A stretch of DNA of 64,000 nucleotides. It comes from Pseudomonas taiwanensis. GTDB taxonomy: Bacteria; Pseudomonadota; Gammaproteobacteria; Pseudomonadales; Pseudomonadaceae. Shown here one piece after another: positions 7,734 through 58,115 of the stretch. The notes below the pieces were generated by a model. That model was not told the DNA's origin, did no database searches, and saw only the letters and a list, made by a program, of their open reading frames with translations. The stretch's first letter is position 1; every line of letters starts with the position of its first letter. The translations under genes and the position numbers were made by a program. The DNA lies in NCBI RefSeq assembly GCF_013393345.1, contig NZ_QJRF01000074.1, positions 62,001-126,000 of the forward strand. The letters run 5' to 3'.

Positions 7734-8228
7734 GTGGTACCAATGGGTTTCCGGGCTACCGGAAACGGCGATTGGCGCACACGACTCTCGCGGTCGGTGT
7801 CAGGTGCGTGTCAGGAGCGGCGTGCCACTCCAGTGTCCAGCGAGCTCCAGTCAAAGGGACCGGAATCGCGACTACGTCTCCTGCTTGCTGTCGTGACAGA
7901 AGCACTTGTTCAGGAGGAGGAATCAACGGTCGGAAGCGGACGAAATGAAGCGTCTTGAAACTACGCAGTCCGACGGTTATGCATCTCCACCCTACACTTA
8001 TCCCTTGAAAATCGGGTGCCGCTCGCTGAATCCGTAGCGGGTTGCATTTACCGTGATCTCCCAAAGGAAAGGGACGATCACGCGTCATGGCTCAAGGCTT
8101 TGGTTTCTGAAAATTCGCAGTCATTGCAGCGAATTTTCTGTCGGACGGCCTTACGTCCTGAAAGGGTTGCAGCGGTTGGGGGTGGCAGTTTTGGCGATCA
8201 CCCCGAAACCAGGCCGCTTTTGGCGGCG
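7734..8228 (-). promoter_or_regulatory. Long rne 5' leader with conserved-type hairpin (rne-II-like)
   Basis: If transcription starts about 7 nt after the -10 at 8240-8235, rne has a leader of about 495 nt. A perfect 10-bp inverted repeat (GAAAATTCGC / GCGAATTTTC, 10-nt loop) lies at 8109-8138 inside it. Pseudomonads are known to carry the rne-II RNA motif in rne leaders, and E. coli rne regulates itself through its leader. The position and structure here fit that, but I have not matched the rne-II consensus. Confidence 0.6.
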
Positions 8229-21792: not shown

Positions 21793-21913
21793 AAAAAAAA
21801 CCCGGGTTCTGGGGGATGAATCCGGGTCAAGACCATTAGGAGTAAAACAAAGGAACGCGATCCACGGTTCCTCGACTGGCTGGGCACTTGGGGGGAGATG
21901 CCGCGCGCCAGTA
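21793..21913 (-). ncRNA. rgsA: RgsA (P16)-type small regulatory RNA
   Basis: A minus-strand unit of about 120 nt ending in the hairpin ACCCGG...CCGGGT and eight T residues (21800-21793), a clear rho-independent terminator. Its middle holds a second hairpin, GGAAC / GTTCC. A CGATACT -10 element (21926-21920), like that used by sigma-S, lies upstream, giving a start near 21913. In P. aeruginosa the stress-related sRNA RgsA sits at exactly this place, next to the tatD-type gene. Identity rests on position, size and structure; I could not align it. Confidence 0.8.
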
Positions 21914-21919
21914 AGAAGA

Positions 21920-21926
21920 AGTATCG
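21920..21926 (-). promoter_or_regulatory. Sigma-S-like -10 element of the RgsA-type sRNA
   Basis: CGATACT on the minus strand resembles the sigma-S -10 consensus CTATACT and is correctly placed for an sRNA start at about 21913. I see no clear -35 element and no perfect TGTAAG-N6-CTTACA upstream site. Confidence 0.5.
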
Positions 21927-22004
21927 GTCAATATCCCCATGCGTCCAGACAGTGCAGCGGCGTTTCTTAAACCTATTTGGAATACGCCGGCGCCGGCTGA
22001 GTCC

Positions 22005-29864: not shown

Positions 29865-29887
29865 TAGCGCTTCCCGGCCTGCCGTAC

Positions 29888-29918
29888 AAAAAACCCGCTC
29901 TTCGGAGCGGGTTTTTTT
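29888..29918 (+). terminator. Terminator after etfBA
   Basis: AAAAAACCCGCTC and GAGCGGGTTTTTTT form a strong stem with a TTCG tetraloop and a run of T residues. Confidence 0.95.
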
Positions 29919-29968
29919 ATGGCTATGTCTGAATTAGCTGTTGCCCGAAGTCGACCGCGGTCCAGGAG

Positions 29969-30023
29969 GTAGGAGCTAGCTTGCTAGCGAAAAGGCGCCA
30001 ATCGCTGGCAAGCCAGCTCCCAC
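29969..30023. repeat. REP pair (two palindromic units)
   Basis: Two inverted Pseudomonas REP units. The left has the core GCTAGC-TT-GCTAGC and the right GCTGGC-AA-GCCAGC, with GTAGGAG and CTCCCAC at the ends. Each unit can fold on itself and the pair can also fold together. Confidence 0.85.
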
Positions 30024-30049
30024 GGGCAATGCAGCGTTTTTATTGCCCT

Positions 30050-37846: not shown

Positions 37847-38347
37847 ATGCGTTCGATTCATCTGCTTTGTGCCGGCCTGGCGCTGACTCTATTGGCGGCG
37901 TGCGACAAGGATGCCCCGTCGCAGCCCAAGGCGCCGCCCGCACCGCCCCCCATTTCCTCCAGTCCGGCGCCGGCGCCCTCGGCTGCCGAACCGGCCGCGC
38001 CCGTACCAAAGGTGCCCGAGACGGCGCCTGTTCCGCCGCCACCGGTGCCAACGCCCAAACCGGTGCCGTCGCCGCCCGCTCCGGTCAAACCGAAGGAACC
38101 GCCGGTTGCTGCCGCAACCACGGCGCCACTGCCCAAGGCCAAGCTCGACCTCACCTTGCCAAAGGATCTGGTCGATCAGTTGCAACCCAGCGAAGCCACT
38201 GCCGACCTACCGGACCAGCCCGTGCTACCGCAGATGTTCGCGGAAAAGCCTGCACCGGAAAGCCCGTTCCAGCTCAACGGCAAGTTGATTACCAATGAGC
38301 GGGAAGACGTGGAAGGCGCCGAGTTGCAGTTCGAGTTCAAGCGCTGA
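37847..38347 (+). CDS. Proline-rich lipoprotein of unknown function
   Basis: A 166-residue protein with a signal peptide and lipobox LAAC (about residues 13-16). Residues 20-95 are almost only Pro, Ala, Val and Lys, a likely spacer through the periplasm or cell wall. The end is more ordinary (KLDLTLPKDLVDQL). TAGAAT lies 4 nt before ATG 37847 and there is no ribosome-binding site. It lies 76 bp after the anti-sigma-like gene; a functional link is possible but unproven. Confidence 0.72.
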   Translation: MRSIHLLCAGLALTLLAACDKDAPSQPKAPPAPPPISSSPAPAPSAAEPAAPVPKVPETAPVPPPPVPTPKPVPSPPAPVKPKEPPVAAATTAPLPKAKLDLTLPKDLVDQLQPSEATADLPDQPVLPQMFAEKPAPESPFQLNGKLITNEREDVEGAELQFEFKR

Positions 38348-38378
38348 TCGCGTGCTCGTGACTTACGGGTGACGGATG

Positions 38379-38440
38379 GTAGGAGCGAGCTTGCTCGCGA
38401 AGAGGCCGCCCAAGAGATTCGCGAGCAAGCTCGCTCCTAC
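38379..38440. repeat. REP pair at the 3' end of the atu cluster
   Basis: GTAGGAGCGAGCTTGCTCGC and its inverted copy are separated by a short spacer. It lies between the convergent ends of the Pro-rich lipoprotein gene and atuH and may serve as their 3' hairpin. Confidence 0.88.
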
Positions 38441-38458
38441 ATAGTCAGGAAGTCTGCG

Positions 38459-40282
38459 TCAGAAACGATAATCCCCGCGCTGGATGGCCTGATACAGGGC
38501 CCCATCCAGCGGGCGGAAGGCCGGGTCGCCGGGCAGTCGCGCGAAAAGCGGTTCACTCACTGCTGACGGGTCATAGGCCTGCTGCTTCAGGTCGGTCTTC
38601 TTGTACTTGAAGGTTCCCGTGGTCTCCACCTCTCCCAGCAGGCGCACGAACAGCGGCGAGGCGTAGGCCGGCAGCTCGCGGTCCAGATGGTCGGCAAGGG
38701 CACGGTGATCCAGGTGCGCGCCACTGGCCAGGCGCAAGGCGGCCATGCCGCAGCGGCCGTTGGTGCCGGGAATCTCCACGCCGTAGACCACGGCATCCTC
38801 CACGCCAGGGAAAGCGCCCAGGGTGTTCTCGACCTCGGTGGTGGAAACGTTCTCGCCTTTCCAGCGGAAGGTGTCGCCGAGGCGGTCGACGAACTGCGCA
38901 TGCTTGCAGCCGATACCGCGCATCAGGTCGCCGGTGTTGAACCAGGCGTCACCCTTCTTGAACACGTCACGGAGGATCACCGCTTCGCTCTTGGCCGGAT
39001 CGGTATAGCCGTCGAAGGGCCACTTCGGGCTGATCTCGCTGATCAGCAGGCCCGACTCACCCTGCGCCACTTCCTGGAGGAATCCGCGTGGGTCCCGTAG
39101 CGGACGGTCGTTCTCCAGGTCGTAACGGACGATGGCGAAGGTGGCGGGGGAGAAGCCCACCGTGTTGTCGAAATTGAAGACGTTGGTGAAGCCGATGTTG
39201 CCCTCGCTGGAGGCATAGAACTCCATCACCCGCTCGATGCCGAAGCGCGACTTGAACTCGCCCCAGATCGAGGGGCGCAGGCCGTTGCCGATCATGCAGG
39301 TCAGGCTGTTGTTGCGCTCTTCGGGGCAGGGCGGCTGGTTCAGCAGGTAGCGGCACAGCTCGCCGATATAGCCGAAGCAGCTGGCCTGGTAGCGCGCGAC
39401 ATCCTTCCAGAAATTGCTGGCGGAGAACTTGCGGCGCAGCGCGATGGCGGCGCCACCCGCCAGCACCGAGGCCCAGCTCACGGTGACCGCATTGTTGTGG
39501 TAGCAGGGCAGGGTCAGATAGAACACGTCGGTCTCGGTGAGGCCAAGGCCCGAATGGCCGAAGCCGCCATAGGCCTTGATCCATTTGCCGTGGCTGAGGA
39601 TGGAGGCCTTGGGCAGGCCGGTGGTGCCTGAGGTGTAGATGTAGAAACAGGCGTCCTTGAGGCGCACCTGCCCGGTGTCCGCCGGGTTGTCACTGGACTG
39701 GCCGAGCGCCAGGCGCATCAGGTTCTGCCAGCCGGCCGGTGCATCGCCGGGCTCGAGCAGGCTATCGGCATCGGCCACCCAGTAGCAGCGGCGGGCGTCC
39801 TCCAACTCATCGCGGACTTCGTCGAAAGCGGCACGCAGTTCTTCTCCCACCACAAAATGTTGGGCCTTCACCAGATTGAGGCTGTGGCTCAGCACCTTGC
39901 CGCGCTGGGTGGTGTTCACCAGGGCGGCAATCGCCCCGAGCTTCGCCAGTGCGCCGAGCACTGCCAGCACTTCGATGCGGTTCTCCAGCATCACCGCCAG
40001 CACGCTGCCATGGGCCACGCCTTCGGCCTTCAGGGCACGGGCCAGACGGTTGCTCCAGGCATTGAGCTGGGCGTAGTCGAGCTGGCGTTGCTCGTCGATC
40101 ACAGCAGGACGTTCGGGATACAGGCGTGCCGCCCGCTCCAGCGCCCAGCCCAGGGAGAGCGCTTTCTCGCGGTTGCGAATGCCGGTGTAGTACAGGCCCA
40201 GCAGCAGGCGCGGCAGACGTGGCAGGTTGGCCGGCAAGCGGGCGATGAAACTCAGCGGGGAAATCAATTCGACCTGGCTCAT
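38459..40282 (-). CDS. atuH: Long-chain acyl-CoA synthetase AtuH
   Basis: A 607-residue FATP-type acyl-CoA synthetase (AMP-forming). The AMP-binding motif is YIYTSGTTGLPK (about residues 215-226), with FYASSEGNIGF and the C-terminal GDLMRGIG and KYKKTDLK. It would activate a terpenoid or fatty acid with CoA. It is the last gene of the atu cluster in the order A-B-C-D-E-F-G-H, as in P. aeruginosa. Start at ATG 40282. A 250-bp repeat-bearing gap separates it from atuG, so it may not be made at the same level as the others. Confidence 0.9.
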   Translation of the reverse strand: MSQVELISPLSFIARLPANLPRLPRLLLGLYYTGIRNREKALSLGWALERAARLYPERPAVIDEQRQLDYAQLNAWSNRLARALKAEGVAHGSVLAVMLENRIEVLAVLGALAKLGAIAALVNTTQRGKVLSHSLNLVKAQHFVVGEELRAAFDEVRDELEDARRCYWVADADSLLEPGDAPAGWQNLMRLALGQSSDNPADTGQVRLKDACFYIYTSGTTGLPKASILSHGKWIKAYGGFGHSGLGLTETDVFYLTLPCYHNNAVTVSWASVLAGGAAIALRRKFSASNFWKDVARYQASCFGYIGELCRYLLNQPPCPEERNNSLTCMIGNGLRPSIWGEFKSRFGIERVMEFYASSEGNIGFTNVFNFDNTVGFSPATFAIVRYDLENDRPLRDPRGFLQEVAQGESGLLISEISPKWPFDGYTDPAKSEAVILRDVFKKGDAWFNTGDLMRGIGCKHAQFVDRLGDTFRWKGENVSTTEVENTLGAFPGVEDAVVYGVEIPGTNGRCGMAALRLASGAHLDHRALADHLDRELPAYASPLFVRLLGEVETTGTFKYKKTDLKQQAYDPSAVSEPLFARLPGDPAFRPLDGALYQAIQRGDYRF

Positions 40283-40419
40283 GGTTCTCGCGTGTTGTCG
40301 TTGTTGTACGCAGATATGCCCCTGACTCTAGAGCGGTCGACCGGGTCCCGCCATGACCCTGGCGCGGCGGGGGAAGGGCAGATGGGCAAATGGTGGTGGT
40401 GAGGCTGTGGTGGCTCCTT

Positions 40420-40514
40420 GTGGGGGCGAATTCATTCGCGATGCAGGACACAGTCCTGCCCTTCGGCCTCAAGGGGCTGCTGCGCAGCCCATAGCGAATG
40501 AATTCGCCCCCACA
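40420..40514. repeat. Inverted REP-like pair between atuH and atuG
   Basis: TGTGGGGGCGAATTCATTCGC-type sequence at 40420-40440 and its inverted copy at 40494-40514 flank a 53-bp centre holding smaller hairpins. Each unit has a self-complementary core (GCGAAT / ATTCGC). It is a different sequence type from the GTAGGAG REP, but has the same design. Confidence 0.8.
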
Positions 40515-40532
40515 CCCTGGTTTGGCCAGGTT

Positions 40533-41357
40533 TCAATCCAGGAACAAATCCGGCACCAGCGAGCCGCCCTGCGGGTCGTAGCGGTACTGCTCGAATTCGG
40601 TCTGGCCCTGTTCGCGCAAGATTTCTTCGTCGATCAACAGGCGGCCGGTGATGCTGCGGCCCTGGCTGGCCAGGATGGCGTAGGCGGCGTCGGCCATGAT
40701 CGCGGGCGTGCGGGCACGCTTGAAGGCGTCGCGGCTACCCAGTTCGAACTCGATGGCGGCGGTGGCGATCATGGTCTGCGGCCAGAGCGAGTTGACGCTG
40801 ATGCCATAGCGCTTGAACTCCTCGCTCATGCCCAGGGTGAGCATGCTCATGCCGTACTTGGTGACGGTGTAGGGGCCGTGCTGGGCAAACCACTTGGGCG
40901 CGAGATTCAGTGGCGGCGACAGGTTGATGATGTGGCCGTTGCCGCTCTGCTTCAGGTAGGGAAGGGCGGCCTGGCTGCAGACCATCACGGCGCGGGTGTT
41001 GATCTGGTACATCAGGTCGAAACGTTTGGGTTCCAGGCGTTCGACGCCCACCAGCTTGATGGCGCCAGCATTGTTGACCAGCCCATCGATGCCACCGAAG
41101 TGTTCTGCGGCCTTGGCCATGGCCTCGCGCACGGCGTTTTCGTCGCGCACGTCCAGTTGCAGGGCCAGGGCCTTGCCGCCGGCGGCTTCCACTTCTTCGG
41201 CCACGCTGAAGATGGTGCCGGGGAGCTTCGGATGGGGCTCGGTGCTTTTGGCCGCGATGACGATGTTGGCGCCATCGGCGGCGGCGCGCAGGGCGATTTC
41301 ACGGCCGATGCCACGGCTGGCGCCGGTGATGAACAGGGTTTTGCCGGAAAGGGACAT
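40533..41357 (-). CDS. atuG: Short-chain dehydrogenase AtuG
   Basis: A 274-residue SDR. The nucleotide-binding motif is TGASRGIG at about 11-18, the catalytic Ser is in NLSPPLN and the Tyr/Lys pair in YTVTKYGMS. The C-terminus (PDLFLD) is typical of the SCP2-associated SDR group. In atu clusters it sits between atuF and atuH and its exact step is not proven. Start at ATG 41357 with AGGAG upstream. Confidence 0.88.
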   Translation of the reverse strand: MSLSGKTLFITGASRGIGREIALRAAADGANIVIAAKSTEPHPKLPGTIFSVAEEVEAAGGKALALQLDVRDENAVREAMAKAAEHFGGIDGLVNNAGAIKLVGVERLEPKRFDLMYQINTRAVMVCSQAALPYLKQSGNGHIINLSPPLNLAPKWFAQHGPYTVTKYGMSMLTLGMSEEFKRYGISVNSLWPQTMIATAAIEFELGSRDAFKRARTPAIMADAAYAILASQGRSITGRLLIDEEILREQGQTEFEQYRYDPQGGSLVPDLFLD

Positions 41358-41404
41358 CTGGATCTCCTGGTTCTTGTTGTTGTCCGGGGCCGCGCTGCGG
41401 CCCT

Positions 41405-41427
41405 TGGCGAATGAATTCGCCCCTACA
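41405..41427. repeat. Single REP-like unit between atuG and atuF
   Basis: One unit of the type seen at 40420-40514: a palindromic core GGCGAAT-GA-ATTCGCC followed by CCTACA. It lies in the 82-bp gap between atuF and atuG. Confidence 0.75.
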
Positions 41428-41439
41428 GAAAATCGTGCG

Positions 41440-43425
41440 TTAAGAGGCTTCTTCCACCTCTACCAGCAACTGGCGACTCTTCACCTGGTCGCCTTGGCTG
41501 ACCTGGACGCGACGGATCACACCGTCCACGCCGGCCTTCAGCGGGTGCTCCATCTTCATGGCTTCCAGTACCACCAGTAGCTGGCCCTTGGTGACGCGGC
41601 TGCCTTCGGCGACCAGCACTTCGACTATGGCACCATCCATGGGCGCTTTCACCACGCCGGAGCCGGCACCGGCCTGGCCGCCGGCAGGCTCGTGGGTGAC
41701 GTCCTGCAGTTCCAGGTTGCCGTTCTGGCCGAACAGCCAGAGCCGTGAACACTGCTGGTGGTAAGCGATGCGACGACGGATTCCGTCCAGTTCCATCACT
41801 GCCCAGCGGCCGTCTGCGCTCACCAGGCGAACGGCGACTTCCATGTCATTCACCCTTGCCAGCAGGCGCGGTTGCTGGCCAGCGTCCTGCACGGCCAACT
41901 CGACGGCGTGCTTCTGCTCTCCCTGGCGCAGTACCAGGCGCCAGGGCGCGCTGCCTGCGCTGCGCCAGCCGGCAAGACCGCCCTGGTGGGCGGAGTGGGT
42001 GGCCGAGGCCTGGTAGAGCAGGGTGGCGGCGACGGCCAGTTCCATCGGCGAAGCCGATTGCGGGCTGAGGCTCGGATCGTCGCCGAAAACGTCCCCAATG
42101 AAGGCAGTGGTGGCGTCCCCGGCCGCGAATTGCGGGTGTCGCAGCAAGTTGGCGAGGAAGCGCTGATTACCTTTCACGCCGAGCAGCACGCAATCCTCCA
42201 CCGCGCGCGCCAGCTTGCGCCGGGCTTCGTCGCGGGTGGCGCCCCAGGCGATGACCTTGGCCAGCATGGGGTCGTAGAAAGGCGTCACGGCCTGGCCTTC
42301 CACCAGGCCGTGGTCGATGCGGATGCCTTCCAGCTCAGACGGCTCCCAGCGCAGCACGTCGCCGGTCTGGGGCAGGAACCCGGCGGCCGGGTCCTCGGCA
42401 TAGAGACGTACTTCCATGGCGTGGCCGTTGAGACGAATTTCTTCCTGCTTCAAGGGCAGCGGTTGGCCCTCGGCGACGCGAATCTGCCAGGCCACCAGGT
42501 CTTGGCCGGTGATCAGCTCGGTCACCGGGTGTTCCACTTGCAGGCGGGTGTTCATCTCCAGGAAGTAGAAGTCGCCACGGGCATCCAGCAGGAACTCCAC
42601 CGTGCCGGCGCCGACGTAGTTCACCGTGCGTGCGGCCTGAACTGCTGCTTCGCCCATGGCCTGGCGCAGCTCGGCGGTCATGACCGGGCAGGGCGCTTCT
42701 TCGATGACTTTCTGATGGCGGCGCTGCACCGAGCAATCGCGCTCGCCGAGATAGACCAGGTTGCCGTGCTGGTCACCGAACACCTGGATTTCCACGTGAC
42801 GCGGCTGCAACACGGCCTTTTCCAGGATCAGTTCGGCGCTACCGAAGGCATTCAGGGCCTCGGAGCGAGCGGTGCGTAGCTGTGCTGCGAGTTCGTCCGG
42901 GCTGTTCGCCAGGCGCATGCCACGGCCGCCACCGCCGGCGCTGGCCTTGATCATCAGCGGGTAGCCGATGCGTCCGGCTTCGCGGGCCAGGATGGCGTCG
43001 TCCTGCTCAGCACCTTCGTAGCCGGGAATGCAGGGCACACCGGCTTCCAGCATGGCCAGCTTGGAGAGGCGCTTGCTGCCCATCAGGTGGATGGCTTCCA
43101 CGGTCGGGCCAATGAAGGTGATGCCCGCGGCCTCGCAGGCACGGGCGAAGTCGGCGTTCTCGGACAGGAAGCCGTAGCCGGGGTGGACGGCGTCGGCACC
43201 GGTCTTTTGCGCGGCGCCGATAATGGCCTGGATCGACAGGTAGGACTGGCCCACCGGCGCCGGACCAATGCACACCGCTTCGTCAGCGAGACGAACATGG
43301 CGCGCGTCGGCATCGGCTTCGCTGTAGACGGCGACAGTGCGATAGCCGAGGGCCTGGGCGGTGCGCATCACCCGGCAGGCGATCTCGCCGCGGTTGGCGA
43401 TCAGGATCTTGTTGAAGCTGGGCAT
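41440..43425 (-). CDS. atuF: Geranyl-CoA carboxylase, biotin-containing alpha subunit
   Basis: A 661-residue subunit that carboxylates its own biotin and passes CO2 to the AtuC subunit. Domains: biotin carboxylase N-terminal (1-115), ATP-grasp (about 115-325, with KASAGGGGRGM), C-terminal (about 335-445), linker domain, and biotinyl domain with the biotin-lysine in EAMKMEHP near the end. I start it at ATG 43425; the frame is open for 64 more codons but those run through a repeat. Context with atuC separates it from the leucine-pathway MCC subunits. Confidence 0.92.
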   Translation of the reverse strand: MPSFNKILIANRGEIACRVMRTAQALGYRTVAVYSEADADARHVRLADEAVCIGPAPVGQSYLSIQAIIGAAQKTGADAVHPGYGFLSENADFARACEAAGITFIGPTVEAIHLMGSKRLSKLAMLEAGVPCIPGYEGAEQDDAILAREAGRIGYPLMIKASAGGGGRGMRLANSPDELAAQLRTARSEALNAFGSAELILEKAVLQPRHVEIQVFGDQHGNLVYLGERDCSVQRRHQKVIEEAPCPVMTAELRQAMGEAAVQAARTVNYVGAGTVEFLLDARGDFYFLEMNTRLQVEHPVTELITGQDLVAWQIRVAEGQPLPLKQEEIRLNGHAMEVRLYAEDPAAGFLPQTGDVLRWEPSELEGIRIDHGLVEGQAVTPFYDPMLAKVIAWGATRDEARRKLARAVEDCVLLGVKGNQRFLANLLRHPQFAAGDATTAFIGDVFGDDPSLSPQSASPMELAVAATLLYQASATHSAHQGGLAGWRSAGSAPWRLVLRQGEQKHAVELAVQDAGQQPRLLARVNDMEVAVRLVSADGRWAVMELDGIRRRIAYHQQCSRLWLFGQNGNLELQDVTHEPAGGQAGAGSGVVKAPMDGAIVEVLVAEGSRVTKGQLLVVLEAMKMEHPLKAGVDGVIRRVQVSQGDQVKSRQLLVEVEEAS

Positions 43426-43449
43426 ATTCTCTCGCTCCTCGGATTCTAT

Positions 43450-43543
43450 TCCCCTCTCCCTTTGGGAGAGGGGCCAGGGGTGAGGGAACCACCTGCGCGC
43501 GGCGGGATTCCCCTCACCCCAACCCTCTCCCGGAGGGAGAGGG
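43450..43543. repeat. Intergenic CTCTCCC-type palindromic repeat between atuF and atuE
   Basis: The left half CCCTCTCCCTTTGGGAGAGG and the right half with CTCTCCCGGAGGGAGAG each form a hairpin, and the adjoining GGTGAGGG / CCCTCACC arms pair with each other. This is the well-known class of dispersed proteobacterial repeat often mistranslated as a peptide with LPPGEG and SQRERG. Confidence 0.85.
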
Positions 43544-43552
43544 AGTAAAGGC

Positions 43553-44350
43553 TCACTGCGCCCAATTGGGCTTGCGCTTCTGCACGAACGCCATCGTGCC
43601 CTCGGTGCCTTCCGCACCGGTCACGGCGGCGGCGAACTGCTCGGCAGCGCTGTCCAGCAAAGCGGCAAGGGGTTCGTTTTCCGTGGCCAGCAGCAGGGCC
43701 TTGGTGCGGGCGTTGGCGCCAGGCGCGCAGCGGCGGACCTGCTCCAGGCTCTCGGCCAGGCGCTGCTCCATGGCTGCGCCGTCGGCTTCGGCGAAATGCA
43801 CCAACCCCAGGCGCAGGGCTTCACGACCATCGAAGCGTGCGGCGGTCAGGGCCAGGCGGCGTGCCTGGGTAAGGCCGATACGCTTGACCACGAAAGGCGC
43901 GATTTGCGCCGGCAAGATGCCGAGGCTGGTTTCCGGCAGGCCAAACTGGGCGTCGGCAAGGGCGATGGCGATGTCCGAGACGCAGGCCAGGCCGAAACCG
44001 CCGCCCAGCACAGCGCCTTCCAGCACCACGACCAGTGCCTGCGGCTGCTCCTGGGCTTCCTCCAGCAGGCTGCCGAAGGCCCGGTTCAGGCTTCGGTAGG
44101 CATCGCTGCCGGTGGCACGGGCGCTGGCCATGTCCTTGATATCGCCGCCGGCGCAGAAGTGGCCACCGGCACCGCGCAGCACCACTGCGCGCACGTTGGC
44201 GTCGCCATGCACGGCAGCCAGGACCGCACGCAGTTCCTCGACCATCGCCAGGCTCATGGCGTTGCGGCTGTCCGGCCGGTTCAGGGTGATGTGCAGTACG
44301 CCGCCGGCCTGTTCCAGCAGCAGGGTTTCGCAGTTCGGCAATTCATTCAT
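43553..44350 (-). CDS. atuE: Isohexenylglutaconyl-CoA hydratase
   Basis: A 265-residue crotonase-family hydratase. The oxyanion-hole segments are GAGGHFCAGGDI (about 60-71) and EGAVLGGGFGLA. In the Atu route it adds water to the product of geranyl-CoA carboxylase. The start is ATG 44350, because the upstream extension runs through the REP. It lies between atuD and atuF, in the known order. Confidence 0.9.
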   Translation of the reverse strand: MNELPNCETLLLEQAGGVLHITLNRPDSRNAMSLAMVEELRAVLAAVHGDANVRAVVLRGAGGHFCAGGDIKDMASARATGSDAYRSLNRAFGSLLEEAQEQPQALVVVLEGAVLGGGFGLACVSDIAIALADAQFGLPETSLGILPAQIAPFVVKRIGLTQARRLALTAARFDGREALRLGLVHFAEADGAAMEQRLAESLEQVRRCAPGANARTKALLLATENEPLAALLDSAAEQFAAAVTGAEGTEGTMAFVQKRKPNWAQ

Positions 44351-44373
44351 GCCGGCATCCTCGTCAGGGTGTC

Positions 44374-44422
44374 GCAGGAGCCAGCTTGCTGGCGACGCTT
44401 TCGCCAGCAAGCTGGCTCCTGC
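44374..44422. repeat. REP pair between atuE and atuD
   Basis: GCAGGAGCCAGCTTGCTGGC and its inverted copy with a 5-nt centre make a near-perfect 49-bp palindrome. The core is GCCAGC-TT-GCTGGC. Confidence 0.88.
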
Positions 44423-44431
44423 GGATTGGGA

Positions 44432-45592
44432 TCAGCCTTTCTTTTTCCCGGGCAGGATGCCCATCAGCTTGCAGATGATGCCCAGCATGATTTCGTCCGC
44501 GCCGCCGCCGATGGAGACCAGGCGGGTGTCGCGGTAGGCGCGGGAAACATGGTTGTCCCACATGAAGCCCATGCCGCCCCAGTACTGCAGGCAGGCATCG
44601 GTGACTTCGCGGCCGAGGCGGCCGGCCTTGAGTTTGGCCATTGAGGCGAGGCGGGTGACGTCCTTGCCGGTGACGTACAGCTCCACGGCCTGGTAGACGA
44701 GCGCGCGCAGGGCTTCGATCTCGGTCATCAACTCGGCCAGGCGGAAATGGATCACCTGGTTGTCGATCAGCGCGTTGCCGAAGGTCTTGCGCTCCTTGCA
44801 GTAGTCGATGGTGACGTCCACGCAGTGCTCCAGGCCCTTGATCATGTTGGCGGCGCCGAACAGGCGCTCTTCCTGGAACTGCAGCATCTGCATCATGAAG
44901 CCGGCGCCTTCGTGGCCGATGCGGTAACGCTGCGGCACGCGAACGTTGTCGAAGAACACCTGGGCGGTTTCCGAGCTGCGCATGCCGAGCTTGTCGAGGT
45001 GGGCGCTGAGGGTGATGCCGGGGGTGTTCATCGGCACCATGATCAGCGACTTGTTGATGTGCGGCTTGTCGTCCGAGGTGTTGGCCAGCAGGCAGATGAA
45101 GTCGGCGCTGGGGGAGTTGGTGATCCACATCTTGCTGCCGTTGATCACGTAGTCGCTGCCGTCCTTGCGGGCGGTGGTCTTCATCCCGGCGACGTCGGAG
45201 CCGGCGCCCACTTCCGAGACGCCGATGCAGCCGACCATCTCGCCGGCGATGGCTGGGCGGAGGAACTCCTCACGCAGCTCATCGGAACCGAAGCGGGCCA
45301 GGGCCGGGGTGCACATGTCGGTCTGCACGCCGATCGACATGGGAATGCCGCCGCAATGAATGGTGCCGAACTCTTCGGCAGCGACGATGGAGTAGCTGTA
45401 GTCCAGGCCCATACCGCCGAATTTCTCCGGCTTGGAAATGCCGAGGAGGCCCAGCTCGCCCGCCTTCTTGAAGATGTCGTGGATCGGGAAGCGGCCTTCC
45501 TTTTCCCACTGGTCGACATGGGGGTTGATCTCCCTGTCGACGAAATTGCGCACCGTGCGGCGAAGTTCTTCGTGTTCCTGGGTGAAGATCAT
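44432..45592 (-). CDS. atuD: Citronellyl-CoA dehydrogenase (acyl-CoA dehydrogenase family)
   Basis: A 386-residue FAD acyl-CoA dehydrogenase. Motifs include GCIGVSEVGAGSDVAGMKT in the FAD/substrate region, YVINGSKMWITNS, and QYWGGMGFM near the C-terminus. It would turn citronellyl-CoA into geranyl-CoA, with electrons passing to EtfBA and EtfD, encoded at 26-30 kb. Start at ATG 45592 with AAGGAG upstream. It lies 22 nt from atuC with no repeat between them. Confidence 0.9.
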   Translation of the reverse strand: MIFTQEHEELRRTVRNFVDREINPHVDQWEKEGRFPIHDIFKKAGELGLLGISKPEKFGGMGLDYSYSIVAAEEFGTIHCGGIPMSIGVQTDMCTPALARFGSDELREEFLRPAIAGEMVGCIGVSEVGAGSDVAGMKTTARKDGSDYVINGSKMWITNSPSADFICLLANTSDDKPHINKSLIMVPMNTPGITLSAHLDKLGMRSSETAQVFFDNVRVPQRYRIGHEGAGFMMQMLQFQEERLFGAANMIKGLEHCVDVTIDYCKERKTFGNALIDNQVIHFRLAELMTEIEALRALVYQAVELYVTGKDVTRLASMAKLKAGRLGREVTDACLQYWGGMGFMWDNHVSRAYRDTRLVSIGGGADEIMLGIICKLMGILPGKKKG

Positions 45593-45614
45593 TGTTGTTC
45601 TCCTTATCGAATCA

Positions 45615-47231
45615 TCAGAACCGGGCCACGCCGAAGCTGTTGGCCTTGAGCGGGCGGACTTCGGCCTCTGCGCAGATATCCAGCAGATAACCCAGCAGTC
45701 GACGGCTGTCACGAGGGTCGATCAGGCCGTCATCCCAGAGGTTGGCGGTGCCGTAGAGTGCGGTGGATTGGCTGTCGAGTTTCTGAGCGGTCACCTGTTC
45801 GAGCATGTCGAGCATCTTCGGGTCGGCCTCCTTGCCCTCCTTGGCGTGTTTTTCCTCGGTGACGATGCGCAGCACCTTGCCGGCCTGGGCACCGCCCATC
45901 ACGGCCGTGCGGCTGTTGGGCCAGGCAAAGATGAAGCGCGGGTCGAGGCCGCGGCCGCACATGGCGTAGTTGCCGGCACCGTAGGAACCGCCCACCACCA
46001 GGGTGAGTTTCGGTACACGGGCGTTGGCCACGGCCTGAATCATCTTCGAGCCGTGCTTGATCACGCCCAGTTGCTCGGACTCGGTGCCGACCATGAAGCC
46101 GGTGGTGTTGTGCAGGAACAGCAGCGGCACGTTGGCCTGCTCGCAGAGCTGGATGAACTGCGCCGCCTTGGCCGCGCCGCGGGGCGTGATGGGGCCGTTG
46201 TTGCCGATCAGTCCGCAGGGACGACCTTCGATGCGCAGGTGGCCGCAGACGGTCTGGCTGTCGAATTCGTTCTTGAAGGCGAGGAATTCCGAGCCGTCGG
46301 CGATGCGGGCGACAATCTCGCGCACGTCGTAGGGCTTCTTCGGATCGGCCGGGACCACGCCCAGCAGTTCTTCGGCGCTATACAGCGGCTCGCGCCATTC
46401 GGCGTGGGCTCGGACCGGCAATTGGGCGTTCCAGGGCAGCATGGCGAGGATGTCACGGGCCAGGCGCAGGGCGTCGGCGTCGTTCTCGGCCAGGTACTCG
46501 GCGGTACCGGCGACCTGGGCGTGCATTTCGGCGCCGCCCAGTTCTTCGTCGCTCGCCACTTCACCGGTGGCGGCCTTCAGCAGGGGCGGGCCGGCGAGGA
46601 ACATCTTGGCCTTGCCGCGAACCACGATCACGTAGTCCGACAGGCCCGGTTGATAAGCGCCGCCGGCGGTGCTGGAGCCGTGCACAACGGTCAGCTGGGG
46701 GATGCCCATCGCGGAAATCCGCGCCTGGTTGGCGAAGCCGCGTGCCCCTTCGACGAAGATTTCCGCAGCATAATTGAGGTTGGCGCCACCGCTTTCGGTA
46801 AGGGCCACCAGCGGCAGTTTGTTCTCCACGGCGATCTGCTGCAGGCGCAGGGTCTTCTTCAGGCCGGTGGGGGAGATGGTGCCGCCCTTGATGGCACTGT
46901 TGCTGGCGCTGATCAGGCAACGAATCCCGGCGATGTAGCCGATGCCAGCGATGATGCCGCCGCCGGCCTGGGTGCCGTCCTTGTCGTCATGCAGTTTGTA
47001 GCCGGCCAGGGAACAGAGTTCGAGGAAGGGGCTGCCCGGGTCCAGCAGCAGGTTCAGGCGTTCGCGGGGCAACAGCTGGCCGCGTTTCTCGAACTTCGCT
47101 TTCGACTCGGCTGCCTTGTCCAGCACCTTCTGCTCGACGTCACGGAAGCTGGAGATAGCCGCGAGCATGGCGTCGCGGTTTCGGGCGAAGTCTTCGCCCT
47201 GGGAATCGAGTTCGGATTGGATGACCGTCAT
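45615..47231 (-). CDS. atuC: Geranyl-CoA carboxylase, beta (carboxyltransferase) subunit
   Basis: A 538-residue carboxyltransferase that transfers CO2 from AtuF biotin to geranyl-CoA. The N- and C-terminal crotonase-like halves are visible: TESGGANLNYAAEIF (about 145-159), GSSTAGGAYQPGLSD and AGPPLLKAATGEVAS, then NGPITPRGAAKAAQF and GGSYGAGNYAMCGRG. The substrate cannot be proved from sequence; the call against methylcrotonyl-CoA carboxylase rests on cluster context. It starts 4 nt after the atuB stop. Confidence 0.92.
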   Translation of the reverse strand: MTVIQSELDSQGEDFARNRDAMLAAISSFRDVEQKVLDKAAESKAKFEKRGQLLPRERLNLLLDPGSPFLELCSLAGYKLHDDKDGTQAGGGIIAGIGYIAGIRCLISASNSAIKGGTISPTGLKKTLRLQQIAVENKLPLVALTESGGANLNYAAEIFVEGARGFANQARISAMGIPQLTVVHGSSTAGGAYQPGLSDYVIVVRGKAKMFLAGPPLLKAATGEVASDEELGGAEMHAQVAGTAEYLAENDADALRLARDILAMLPWNAQLPVRAHAEWREPLYSAEELLGVVPADPKKPYDVREIVARIADGSEFLAFKNEFDSQTVCGHLRIEGRPCGLIGNNGPITPRGAAKAAQFIQLCEQANVPLLFLHNTTGFMVGTESEQLGVIKHGSKMIQAVANARVPKLTLVVGGSYGAGNYAMCGRGLDPRFIFAWPNSRTAVMGGAQAGKVLRIVTEEKHAKEGKEADPKMLDMLEQVTAQKLDSQSTALYGTANLWDDGLIDPRDSRRLLGYLLDICAEAEVRPLKANSFGVARF

Positions 47232-47235
47232 CGTG

Positions 47236-48111
47236 TCACTCCTGGTCCTTCAGCACATCGGGCAGGTAGGCGCGGTGGAAGCCGTTGTAGCCCTTGCTCT
47301 GGCCCGGCTTGGCCTTGGCCAGGGGGAAAGCGCGGCTGCCTTGGCTGGCAGCACCGTCGATACGAATGGTGTTGCCGCTGATGAAGGCGGCGCCGGGGGA
47401 GAGCAGGAAGACGATGGCGGCGGCCACTTCCGACTCGCTGCCGATGCGCTTGAGTGGCACGTGCTCGCGCAGGGTCGGGATGATGGCCTTGAAAGCGCCT
47501 TCATAGGTGTCCATGCCGCTGGAGGCGATCCAGCCAGGCGCCACGGCGTTGACCCGAACCCCTGCATGACCCCACTCGACGGCAGCGGTCTTGGTGAAGT
47601 TCTCCATGCCGGCGCGGGCGGCACCGGAGTGGCCCATGCCGGGCATGCCGCCCCACATGTCAGCGAGCATGTTGACGATGCTGCCGCCGGTCTTGCTCAT
47701 CGCCTGGTTGAACACCTCGCGAGCCACAAGGAAGCCGCCCACCAGGTTGGTGCGCACCACGGTCTCGAAGCCTTTCTGGTTGATCGAGGCGAGTGGGGCG
47801 GGGTACTGGCCGCCGGCGTTGTTGACCAGGTGGTGGATGGAGCCGTGCTCGGCCAGCACGGTCGCGACCATGGCCTTCACTGCGTCTTCTTCACGGATGT
47901 CGCAGGCCTGCCAGCTGGCGACACCGCCGTCTTCGATGATTTCACCTGCGGTCTTTTCCAGCTTTTCCGGCTTGCGGCCGACCAGCACCACGTGCGCGCC
48001 CAAGGCTGCCAGTTCATGGGCGGTGCAACGGCCGATGCCGCTGCCGCCACCGGTGACCATGATGGTCTGGCCGCTGAACAGGCCGGGCTTGAATACCGAG
48101 TCGTAGCTCAT
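47236..48111 (-). CDS. atuB: Short-chain dehydrogenase AtuB
   Basis: A 291-residue SDR. The nucleotide-binding motif is TGGGSGIG at about 20-27, NNAGGQYPAPL follows, and the active-site region is GHSGAARAGMEN, without the usual YxxxK Tyr, as in dienoyl-CoA reductase-like SDRs. This hints that it acts on CoA thioesters. It lies between atuA and atuC. Start at ATG 48111 with GGAAGGA upstream. Confidence 0.88.
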   Translation of the reverse strand: MSYDSVFKPGLFSGQTIMVTGGGSGIGRCTAHELAALGAHVVLVGRKPEKLEKTAGEIIEDGGVASWQACDIREEDAVKAMVATVLAEHGSIHHLVNNAGGQYPAPLASINQKGFETVVRTNLVGGFLVAREVFNQAMSKTGGSIVNMLADMWGGMPGMGHSGAARAGMENFTKTAAVEWGHAGVRVNAVAPGWIASSGMDTYEGAFKAIIPTLREHVPLKRIGSESEVAAAIVFLLSPGAAFISGNTIRIDGAASQGSRAFPLAKAKPGQSKGYNGFHRAYLPDVLKDQE

Positions 48112-48167
48112 TCTTGTTGTCCTTCCGTCTGTCGCGTCGGGGATGCGTTATCCGCGCCTTGCTCTTC

Positions 48168-48230
48168 GTAGGAGCGGGCTTGCCCGCGAATCGCTCGTGC
48201 AGCGCCATTCGCCAGCAAGCTGGCTCCTAC
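48168..48230. repeat. REP pair between atuB and atuA
   Basis: The left unit has core GCGGGC-TT-GCCCGC and the right GCCAGC-AA-GCTGGC, with GTAGGAG and CTCCTAC at the ends. The two units are different but each folds on itself. Confidence 0.86.
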
Positions 48231-48249
48231 GGGCCGGGCGCCGTGTCGT

Positions 48250-50040
<1,791 letters not shown>

Positions 50041-50082
50041 TGGAGTATTCCGCAGCACTGATGGGTGATGGATCGAACACTA

Positions 50083-50098
50083 CCAAGCAAGCGCTTGG
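50083..50098. promoter_or_regulatory. AtuR operator 1 (atuA side)
   Basis: CCAAGC-N4-GCTTGG, a perfect palindrome. AtuR of P. aeruginosa is known to bind two inverted repeats in this same intergenic region. Confidence 0.8.
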
Positions 50099-50128
50099 TT
50101 GAAAAGTGCCTGCCAAGTTCTTTTTCAC

Positions 50129-50144
50129 CCGAGCGCTTGCTTGG
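50129..50144. promoter_or_regulatory. AtuR operator 2 (atuR side)
   Basis: CCGAGC-N4-GCTTGG, with one arm mismatch. It is the inverted copy of operator 1, 46 bp away centre to centre, and covers the atuR -35 element. Confidence 0.78.
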
Positions 50145-50165
50145 GCGCATTAGCCGGCATAGATT
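50137..50165 (+). promoter_or_regulatory. Sigma-70 promoter of atuR
   Basis: TTGCTT (50137-50142) and TAGATT (50160-50165) are separated by 17 nt. The -35 lies inside operator 2, so AtuR would repress its own gene. Confidence 0.65.
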
Positions 50166-50233
50166 TCGTTAATCAAGACAGAGACTTGCGAACCATTCTT
50201 AAGTTGGAATGGCTGAGCGCAGCGGGGAAACGA

Positions 50234-50863
50234 ATGAGCCTTGACGACGAAAAAGCCCAGGCGGTGATGCAGGAACTGGTTGCCAGTGGCCAGATCACCG
50301 ACCCTGAAAGTGCCCGCGGCAAGCTGCTGCAGACCGCCGCCCACCTGTTCCGCAGCAAAGGTTACGAACGCACCACGGTGCGCGACCTGGCCAGCGCGGT
50401 AGGCATTCAGTCCGGCAGTATCTTCCACCACTTCAAAAGCAAGGATGAGATCCTGCGTTCGGTGATGGAGGAGACCGTCCTCTACAACACCGCGCTGATG
50501 CGTGCCTCGCTGGCGGAGGCTGGCGACTTGCGTGAGCGGGTGCTGGCGCTGATCCGCTGCGAACTTCAATCCATCATGGGCGGTACCGGCGAAGCCATGG
50601 CCGTGCTGGTATACGAGTGGCGTTCGCTGTCGGAGGAAGGGCAGCAGTACATCCTCCAGCTGCGCGAGGCCTATGAGCAACTCTGGCTGGGCGTTCTGGG
50701 GGAAGCGCGTGCCGAAGGGTATTTCACTGCTGACCCGTTCATCCTGCGGCGCTTCCTCACCGGTGCCTTGAGCTGGACCACCACCTGGTTCCGCCCGGAG
50801 GGTCCGATGACGCTTGACCAACTCGCCGAGCAGGCGCTGTCGCTGGTGATCAAGGACGCCTGA
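50234..50863 (+). CDS. atuR: TetR-family repressor AtuR
   Basis: A 209-residue TetR repressor. The helix-turn-helix (residues about 30-75) includes TTVRDLASAVGIQSGSIFHHF. It represses the atu operon and its own gene in P. aeruginosa; the same two-operator arrangement is seen here. I start it at ATG 50234 with GGGGA upstream; the frame is open further upstream across the operators and does not look coding. It is divergent from atuA. Confidence 0.9.
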   Translation: MSLDDEKAQAVMQELVASGQITDPESARGKLLQTAAHLFRSKGYERTTVRDLASAVGIQSGSIFHHFKSKDEILRSVMEETVLYNTALMRASLAEAGDLRERVLALIRCELQSIMGGTGEAMAVLVYEWRSLSEEGQQYILQLREAYEQLWLGVLGEARAEGYFTADPFILRRFLTGALSWTTTWFRPEGPMTLDQLAEQALSLVIKDA

Positions 50864-50971
50864 CGGCAAATGTGACGTCCGTCACGTCCCGTTCTGGAGA
50901 ACGTGGGTAGTTGCAACGTTAATCACGTACTCTGCGGCGCAGTGCCGTAACTGCAGGGAGCAGCTGTAGAG

Positions 50972-51793
50972 ATGGAAGTTTGCAGGGGGTTGTCCCTGAA
51001 GGCGTTGTGGGTTGCCGTAGTCCTGCTGATTTCAGCGCCTGTGGTGGCGTCGCAGACCGTGCAGGTCGCCGGCGCGCATTTCCCACCCTACGTGATCAAG
51101 CCGGAATCGGCCGAAGCCAGTGGCCTGCTGCTGGACATGCTCGCTGCACTCAATGAGTTGCAGTCGGACTATCGCTTCGTCGTGCGGCCGACCGCTATTC
51201 CCCGGCGCTTCCGGGATTTCCAGGAAGGAAAGATCGACCTCGCTGTATTCGAAAATCCGGACTGGGGTTGGCAGGGGATTCCTGGCGCACGGATCGACCT
51301 GGGCCTGGAAGATGCCGAAATCTTCATCACCAAGGCTCAGCAGGGTCGTGACCAGCACTATTTCTCCAAGCTGACCGGCAAGCGCCTGGCACTCTACAAC
51401 GGCTATCACTACGGCTTCGCCGGCTTCAATCCCGACCCTGAATTCCTCCAGCGCGAGTTCGACGCGAAGCTCACCTACTCCCACGACAGCAACCTGCGCA
51501 TGCTGCTGCGGGAGCGGGCGGATATCGCCCTGGTGACGCGCTCTTACTTCAACGTCTACCTGGAGCAGAATCCGAGCCTGGCAGGCAGTTTCCTGGCCAG
51601 CGAACGGCTGGATCAGCGCTATCACCACTACGCTGTGCTGAGGCCGGGAGCGCCCATCAGCGCTGCGCAGTTTTCCGCTCTGCTGGACGAACTACGCAGC
51701 GGCGGCCAGTTGCAACGGATATTCGGGCGATACGGGGTGGTGGTCAGGCCAGCCGCAACGGATAGCTCAGTAGCAACAGATGGCAGAGATTGA
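50972..51793 (+). CDS. Periplasmic substrate-binding protein (family 3)
   Basis: A 273-residue secreted protein with a signal peptide (about residues 1-28, ending APVVASQ) and the solute-binding fold starting at VQVAGAHFPPYVIKPE. No transporter is adjacent. It differs clearly from the binding protein at 31095. Its last 50 nt overlap, on the opposite strand, the end of the CPBP gene; both frames look coding to their ends. Confidence 0.82.
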   Translation: MEVCRGLSLKALWVAVVLLISAPVVASQTVQVAGAHFPPYVIKPESAEASGLLLDMLAALNELQSDYRFVVRPTAIPRRFRDFQEGKIDLAVFENPDWGWQGIPGARIDLGLEDAEIFITKAQQGRDQHYFSKLTGKRLALYNGYHYGFAGFNPDPEFLQREFDAKLTYSHDSNLRMLLRERADIALVTRSYFNVYLEQNPSLAGSFLASERLDQRYHHYAVLRPGAPISAAQFSALLDELRSGGQLQRIFGRYGVVVRPAATDSSVATDGRD

Positions 51794-58015: not shown

Positions 58016-58021
58016 AGAACT

Positions 58022-58077
58022 GTAGGAGCGAGCTTGCTCGCGAACGGTTCCGACTTCGCGAGCAAGCTCGCTCCTAC
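58022..58077. repeat. Perfect REP pair after the SDR gene
   Basis: Two inverted REP units with perfect 23-bp arms (starting GTAGGAGCGAGCTTGC) and a 10-nt centre, 7 nt after the SDR stop. It has the same sequence type as the REP at 38379-38440. Confidence 0.93.
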
Positions 58078-58091
58078 AAAGTTGCGAATTC

Positions 58092-58115
58092 AAGGCGCCT
58101 TGCGGCGCCTTTTTC
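58092..58115. terminator. Terminator between the SDR and benE-type genes
   Basis: AAGGCGCC and GGCGCCTTTTT form a short perfect stem followed by T residues. It is T-rich on the plus strand and overlaps the end of the minus-strand gene by two bases. Confidence 0.8.

Follow-up and report, generated by a model that had tools for sequence, protein, structure and literature searches.

The gaps between the genes of the atu terpene-degradation operon are often filled with hairpin-forming repeats in Pseudomonas genomes across the genus, while the pattern of filled and empty gaps differs among relatives. We describe this for a 64,000-nucleotide stretch of Pseudomonas taiwanensis (assembly GCF_013393345.1, contig NZ_QJRF01000074.1, positions 62,001 to 126,000), hereafter the window, in which atuABCDEFGH runs in gene order A–H on the minus strand; operon coordinates are window positions. 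The family identity of the repeats, their RAYT-type linkage, genus-wide enrichment, post-stop position, and turnover are established. We consider it probable that the pattern reflects recurrent colonization of open post-stop spacers by mobile repeats, the operon being a favored landing place and no fixed control system. The elements themselves are of known kinds; less expected is that the pattern drifts even as atu and a second operon, liu, keep being refilled throughout the genus.

Repeat families at the atu junctions

Palindromes occupy five of the seven atu gaps (A/B, D/E, E/F, F/G, and G/H), as a preliminary description of this DNA had stated; its added claim that each gap holds a different element fails, because two families are shared among gaps. 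It was right that B/C (4 bp) and C/D (22 bp; 45593..45614, minus strand) carry no repeat. The other gaps measure 138 bp (A/B), 81 bp (D/E), 127 bp (E/F), 82 bp (F/G), and 250 bp (G/H), and the elements in them are given on the minus strand. Family F1 (GCGAATGAATTCGC) supplies the G/H and F/G elements, and family F2 (AGGAGCnnGCTTGCnnGCGA) supplies those in A/B and D/E together with a sixth palindrome, absent from the preliminary list, that lies 3′ of atuH.

The G/H gap contains a complete F1 REPIN of two inverted GCGAATGAATTCGC units (40419..40514; 25-nt arms, 96% complementary) that begins 18 nt past the atuG stop codon. F/G holds half an F1 REPIN, a single REP unit with an inner GGGCC...GGCCC stem (41387..41426); this REP singlet, lacking the doublet of a REPIN, is probably a truncated REPIN and falls under the hairpin threshold used for our counts. 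The D/E gap carries an F2 REPIN with fully complementary 23-nt arms (100%) and a 5-nt loop (44373..44423), 8 nt past the atuD stop, and the A/B gap carries a heterologous F2 REP pair (AGGAGCnnGCTTGCnnGCGA; 48167..48231; 28-nt arms), 18 nt past the atuA stop. Two inverted REP units in one hairpin, the REPIN arrangement, are present in G/H, D/E, and A/B, the last only 82% complementary. The palindrome beyond atuH is an F2 REPIN with perfect 23-nt arms (38379..38440, minus strand), again 18 nt past a stop codon. Folds were more stable than those of dinucleotide shuffles at all five occupied gaps (z = −5.1 for A/B, −11.2 for D/E, −7.0 for E/F, −3.1 for F/G, and −8.8 for G/H). In a fold of the whole F/G gap (41358–41439), the stretch 3′ of the atuF stop pairs with the atuG ribosome-binding site.

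The E/F element (43450..43545), which begins 9 nt past the atuE stop, is of another kind: an inverted pair of an intrastrand-triplex motif (CCCTCTCCC-GGGAGAGGG-GGGTGAGGG). It was missed by the inverted-repeat listing. By sequence it follows the TMECO arrangement CCCTCTCCC-loop-GGGAGAGGG-spacer-GGGTGAGGG, with an exact match at 43511–43543 on the minus strand and a degenerate copy at 43450 on the plus strand, exactness being relative to a pattern that we wrote for this motif (PMC4666352). Loose matching found 38 such motifs, the two of E/F included, in a 1.264-Mb sample of this genome, spaced at regular offsets along six large contigs, and found the motif in the E/F, C/D, and F/G gaps of relatives. 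Genome-wide, a related palindrome of 22 nt is present 19 times.

Both REP families are abundant and mainly extragenic. F1 matched at 319+308 sites genome-wide with at most one mismatch (reversed control pattern, 0), and F2 at 326+338 sites with at most two mismatches (reversed control, 4+4); under loose matching in a 464-kb sample, 1 of 36 F1 matches and 18 of 55 F2 matches fell inside called genes. Six transposase genes in the genome match PF01797 above cut-off (L089–L094). F1 units stand on both flanks of L090 and F2 units on both flanks of L092; one end of L094 bears a third-family unit, and no unit of the four families searched flanks L089, L091, or L093. The PF01797 match and flanking units suggest that L090 and L092 are RAYT-like genes. 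Copy number, inverted doublets, and flanked PF01797 genes, which are the marks given in the covered part of PMC3116915, lead us to read F1 and F2 as REPINs with RAYTs. A tandem array of F2 REP pairs, repeating about every 81 bp, lies beside the RAYT-like gene of L092 (761–1430), and further F2 REP pairs occupy convergent gaps of the window (29865–30049 and 58016–58113).

Dispersal extends to the hairpins of relatives. Among 160 atu hairpins from relatives and the window, 135 had arms that could be tested; 100 of these have at least three near-exact copies outside atu, and 25 have none elsewhere. Coding 18-mers used as controls reached three copies in 0/240 cases and one or more in 14/240.

Enrichment and turnover across relatives

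For these comparisons, a counted hairpin was an ungapped inverted repeat scoring at least 12 in a gap longer than 20 bp; gapped or single-unit elements, such as the F/G element here, are consequently missed, and gaps of 20 bp or less are empty by rule. The comparison set comprised 80 related atu loci, with the window included in the junction counts and in the 160 hairpins. Background genes were called with a purpose-written codon-score script, and atu occupancy was nearly the same by that gene caller (154/466) as by tblastn (156/465).

Occupancy differed markedly between atu and other co-directional gaps. Across 20 genomes and gaps of 21–330 bp, hairpins were present in 68/106 atu gaps vs. 7/121 others, and atu exceeded background in 19 of the 20; the comparison stretches were one 20-kb stretch per genome, placed at round offsets, not at random, on the contigs that carry atu. 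Over the 80 related loci, 156/465 atu gaps were occupied, or 156/311 of those longer than 20 bp. Elsewhere, runs with a minimum of four genes gave 33/285 such gaps in the own-genome sample, 6/81 in the 20 other genomes, and 3/84 in the atu flanks. Among gaps of 61–260 bp, atu occupancy (138/229) was similar to that of convergent gaps in this genome (41/59) and in the atu loci (45/69).

The liu operon, picked for its related function before its repeats were known, proved as rich as atu, with 33/97 gaps occupied (L169–L188), or 33/76 when set beside the 68/106 of the 20-genome comparison. Its hairpins lie in A/B (14/20), B/C (11/19), and D/E (8/19), with none in R/A (0/20) or C/D (0/19). Other operons were poorer: 3/118 gaps in 10 nuo operons, 22/157 in hut-region runs from 19 loci, and 7/51 in eight other genomes for the L219 run, which includes a two-component system; these three sets take in some neighboring genes. 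L219 was chosen because it carries repeats in this genome (2/7 gaps) and was taken from 8 of the 16 other genomes matching at ≥84% identity; it replaced L200, another run picked for its repeats here, which had a match in just 3 of 24 genomes. A prp control was unusable because prpD stood alone in 6/10 loci. A general effect of acyl-CoA operons was rejected, since other runs of acyl-CoA type were poor (2/16 gaps longer than 20 bp; six runs from the own and comparison samples). Among the operons examined, occupancy is a gradient with atu and liu at the top.

Hairpins lie close to the preceding gene. They begin a median of 9 nt past the stop codon and within 15 nt of it in 102/160 cases; only 7/160 reach to within 15 nt of the start that follows.

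The occupied junctions vary from locus to locus. Leaving out eight cells with gaps above 600 bp, occupancy was 16/78 at A/B, 0/79 at B/C, 30/81 at C/D, 27/80 at D/E, 47/76 at E/F, 24/52 at F/G, and 16/26 at G/H, and 25 complete operons showed 17 patterns. On a midpoint-rooted FastTree phylogeny of four atu genes, the six variable junctions (A/B, C/D, D/E, E/F, F/G, and G/H) require at least 14, 20, 20, 20, 14, and 6 changes, slightly below the shuffled means of 14.7, 24.4, 22.7, 22.8, 17.2, and 8.1; stricter scoring still requires at least 66 changes in total. With an occupancy of 30/81 loci at C/D, the emptiness of that gap in P. taiwanensis is a local feature.

Close relatives illustrate this turnover. 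Among six close loci (L009–L014), orthologous A/B, C/D, and D/E gaps are occupied in some and empty in others. In the nearest relative, L012 (91.0% nucleotide identity over genes A, C, D, and E), the A/B gap of 11 bp lacks a hairpin and the C/D gap has one. A/B is 11 bp in L011, L012, and L014 alike, and these three combine it with a 1-bp B/C overlap, as against 138 and 4 bp here, which is a difference of layout and not just the lack of an insert. C/D measures 22–23 bp only here and in L011 and 70–76 bp in the other five close loci, two of which (L012 and L013) have an above-threshold hairpin there. L010 (29 bp) and L014 (4 bp) have a short D/E gap with no hairpin, and in L009 and L011 the D/E hairpin differs from the one here. 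Shared elements also occur: the E/F pair is common to this genome, L012, and L014, and the G/H REPIN to this genome, L012, L014, and L009.

Between the G/H REPIN and atuH lie 136 nt (40283–40418) that match L012 at 99.3% identity and L014 at 96.3%, as against 87.5–92.2% for atuG and atuH in the same two comparisons and about 81% for this segment in L009 and L011. Such identity might reflect a separate atuH promoter or regulatory site, or a recent exchange.

Probable colonization and its alternatives

We infer that the repeats are themselves mobile and that the enrichment stems from tolerance, not from benefit. The palindromes would be dispersed, mostly non-autonomous mobile repeats, comprising two REP/REPIN families with resident RAYT-like genes and the triplex-motif repeats, that land, decay, and vanish repeatedly in the spacer separating a stop codon from the ribosome-binding site that follows. 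Like liu, atu would have many junctions at which the genes do not overlap and are loosely spaced; these would tolerate the repeats, and the operon would therefore fill in one species after another, each with a repeat set of its own. Any one hairpin may locally slow decay or translation as a side effect, with no particular segmentation maintained.

Several observations weigh against this account. With strict scoring, hairpin presence shows clustering along the tree at the C/D and E/F junctions (3 and 4 of 300 shuffles reach the observed value) and more weakly at G/H and D/E (9 and 13 of 300), which is what inheritance would give; there is little clustering at F/G and A/B (36 and 85 of 300). The emptiness of B/C is uninformative beyond the fact that the genes touch (−1 to 5 bp in 79 loci, with liu C/D likewise at most 2 bp in 18/19), given the rule that short gaps count as empty. 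Background gaps include promoter-bearing ones, so the contrast with atu is inflated. Tolerance alone, finally, leaves unexplained both the atu excess over other multigene runs (156/311 against the 33/285, 6/81, and 3/84 above) and the poverty of other acyl-CoA-type runs (2/16).

An unlikely alternative, which nonetheless retains some life, is that selection favors the hairpins for a role in mRNA decay or translation, each protecting or throttling the cistron just upstream, with any available repeat serving. Enrichment of both atu and liu across the genus, very stable folds, and the filling of D/E by different hairpins in close relatives are consistent with it. So is the stop-proximal position of 102/160 hairpins: in E. 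coli, REPs so placed are reported to lower translation (PMC12306157, in the part covered and citing an earlier study), which makes a local effect possible and keeps selection in play. However, stop-proximity is a general habit of REPs, already described for the stop of the upstream open reading frame in the covered part of PMC3733652, and is seen less sharply in the other co-directional hairpins of this genome (22/63 begin within 15 nt of a stop). The patterns of close relatives differ, and no atu gap of P. aeruginosa PA7 (L079) holds a hairpin over threshold, although a single triplex motif is present in its C/D gap. Compensatory changes are few. Nine comparisons of inherited gaps gave 0, 0, 1, 0, 0, 0, 5, 0, and 0 of them beside 3, 2, 1, 1, 1, 2, 10, 4, and 2 broken pairs, the broken exceeding the compensatory in eight and equaling them in the ninth, at low power; structural selection on the hairpins would act weakly if at all.

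Joining this alternative to colonization, one could suppose that atu and liu gaps are landing sites refilled throughout the genus and filled about as commonly as convergent gene ends, in which a post-stop hairpin is selected whichever repeat supplies it because uncoupling the mRNA or translation of each cistron from that of its neighbors is useful in these two carboxylase pathways. We hold this to be a doubtful conjecture.

The preliminary description had instead proposed a fixed division of the transcript into A|BCD|E|F|G|H, with a boundary between the AtuC and AtuF subunits tuning their ratio. About 12% of polycistronic mRNAs in E. coli are reported to be segmented by decay (PMC5927463, in the portion covered), which lends the idea a precedent. 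Here we judge it very unlikely. A decay-segmented operon would keep its structure at the same junction, and the map is not conserved: 25 operons show 17 patterns, and L012, L010, and L014 already differ. The interval from atuC to atuF contains one or more hairpins in 61/76 loci (0.80), no more than the 0.85 predicted by independent filling, which removes the support for a maintained boundary. The E. coli protective structures, according to the same part of PMC5927463, lie generally within coding regions and are frequently conserved.

A chance cluster in one REP-rich genome, picked by eye, is comparably improbable, and it fares differently at two scales. Within the own-genome sample, hairpins occur in 68/714 co-directional gaps other than atu, 74/156 convergent gaps, and 8/150 divergent gaps; atu is the richest of 233 runs, with 4/7 gaps occupied vs. 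3 in the runners-up. Shuffling hairpins over gaps nevertheless produced a run with at least four in 350/5000 trials, an extrapolated expectation of about 0.4 runs as rich per genome, so one genome proves little. The earlier suggestion that the pattern is more than chance was thus weakly founded on this genome and gains strong support once relatives are counted (68/106 vs. 7/121): enrichment recurs in 74 loci outside the nearest clade (142/280 gaps longer than 20 bp), through many changes on the tree.

Hardest to credit is that the hairpins, strong GC-rich stems as they are, act as transcription terminators or attenuators: scanning both strands of 38000–51000 gave seven intrinsic-terminator sites vs. 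9.3 expected by shuffling, the sole minus-strand site lies inside atuC, and no stem with a U run on the operon strand was found in any atu gap.

Operon context and known repeat systems

All eight genes were delimited as open reading frames on the minus strand; their names come from the preliminary description and gene order, and an NCBIfam family scan agrees in type for AtuB to AtuH and returned nothing for AtuA. They are atuA (48250..50058 as the longest open reading frame, with a start at 49968 preferred by the codon-score gene caller), atuB (SDR-type, 47236..48111), atuC (carboxyltransferase-type, or beta, subunit, 45615..47231), atuD (acyl-CoA dehydrogenase type, 44432..45592, with ATG at 45592), atuE (enoyl-CoA hydratase type, 43553..44350), atuF (biotin carboxylase-type, or alpha, subunit, 41440..43425), atuG (SDR-type, 40533..41357), and atuH (acyl-CoA synthetase, 38459..40282). 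Upstream of atuA, an inverted repeat with CCAAGCAAGCGCTTGG lies at 50083–50144 and is probably the AtuR operator. Divergent gaps of 151–260 bp in related loci contain an inverted repeat over threshold in 70/87 cases, presumably often this same CCAAGCAAGCGCTTGG repeat.

Both Rfam matches of the window at gathering score lie outside the atu operon, on the minus strand: an rne-II leader (7744–8001) and the RgsA small RNA (21802–21999). A known RNA family within the operon was rejected as a candidate after a relaxed Rfam search of 38300–50250 returned six microRNA look-alikes far under their gathering scores.

The REP elements resemble the REP/REPIN and RAYT system of Pseudomonas as set out in the covered part of PMC3116915: inverted extragenic doublets that form hairpins, hundreds of copies, and a gene of tyrosine-transposase type flanked by units of the same family. 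There the doublets are reported to be random in extragenic space, whereas here several stand within one operon, and atu and liu are enriched. GTAG-tagged REPs likewise sit near the 3′ end of the upstream open reading frame, mostly in co-directional and convergent gaps; the parts of that account covered (PMC3733652) describe no operon-level hot spot such as this one. TMECO motifs form tandem inverted pairs, as the E/F pair does with its exact copy at 43511–43543, and intergenic instability is described for them; the covered part of that source (PMC4666352) concerns E. coli and reports no bias in operon arrangement, whereas the present pair lies inside a Pseudomonas operon. As in E. coli operons reshaped by decay, of the malEFG type, a hairpin at a cistron end can protect mRNA, but the structures described in the covered part of PMC5927463 are frequently conserved and generally in coding sequence, and those here are dispersed repeats that turn over. 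Literature searches returned no title or abstract on repeats in atu or liu gaps, a result that does not prove that none exists.

An eye-catching arrangement of repeats in a single genome is no guarantee of a conserved control map. The atu operon provides a natural experiment, since dozens of Pseudomonas species carry it and near relatives have a given gap either filled or empty. Comparison of strains in which only one gap differs makes an old question testable, namely whether REP hairpins affect an operon.

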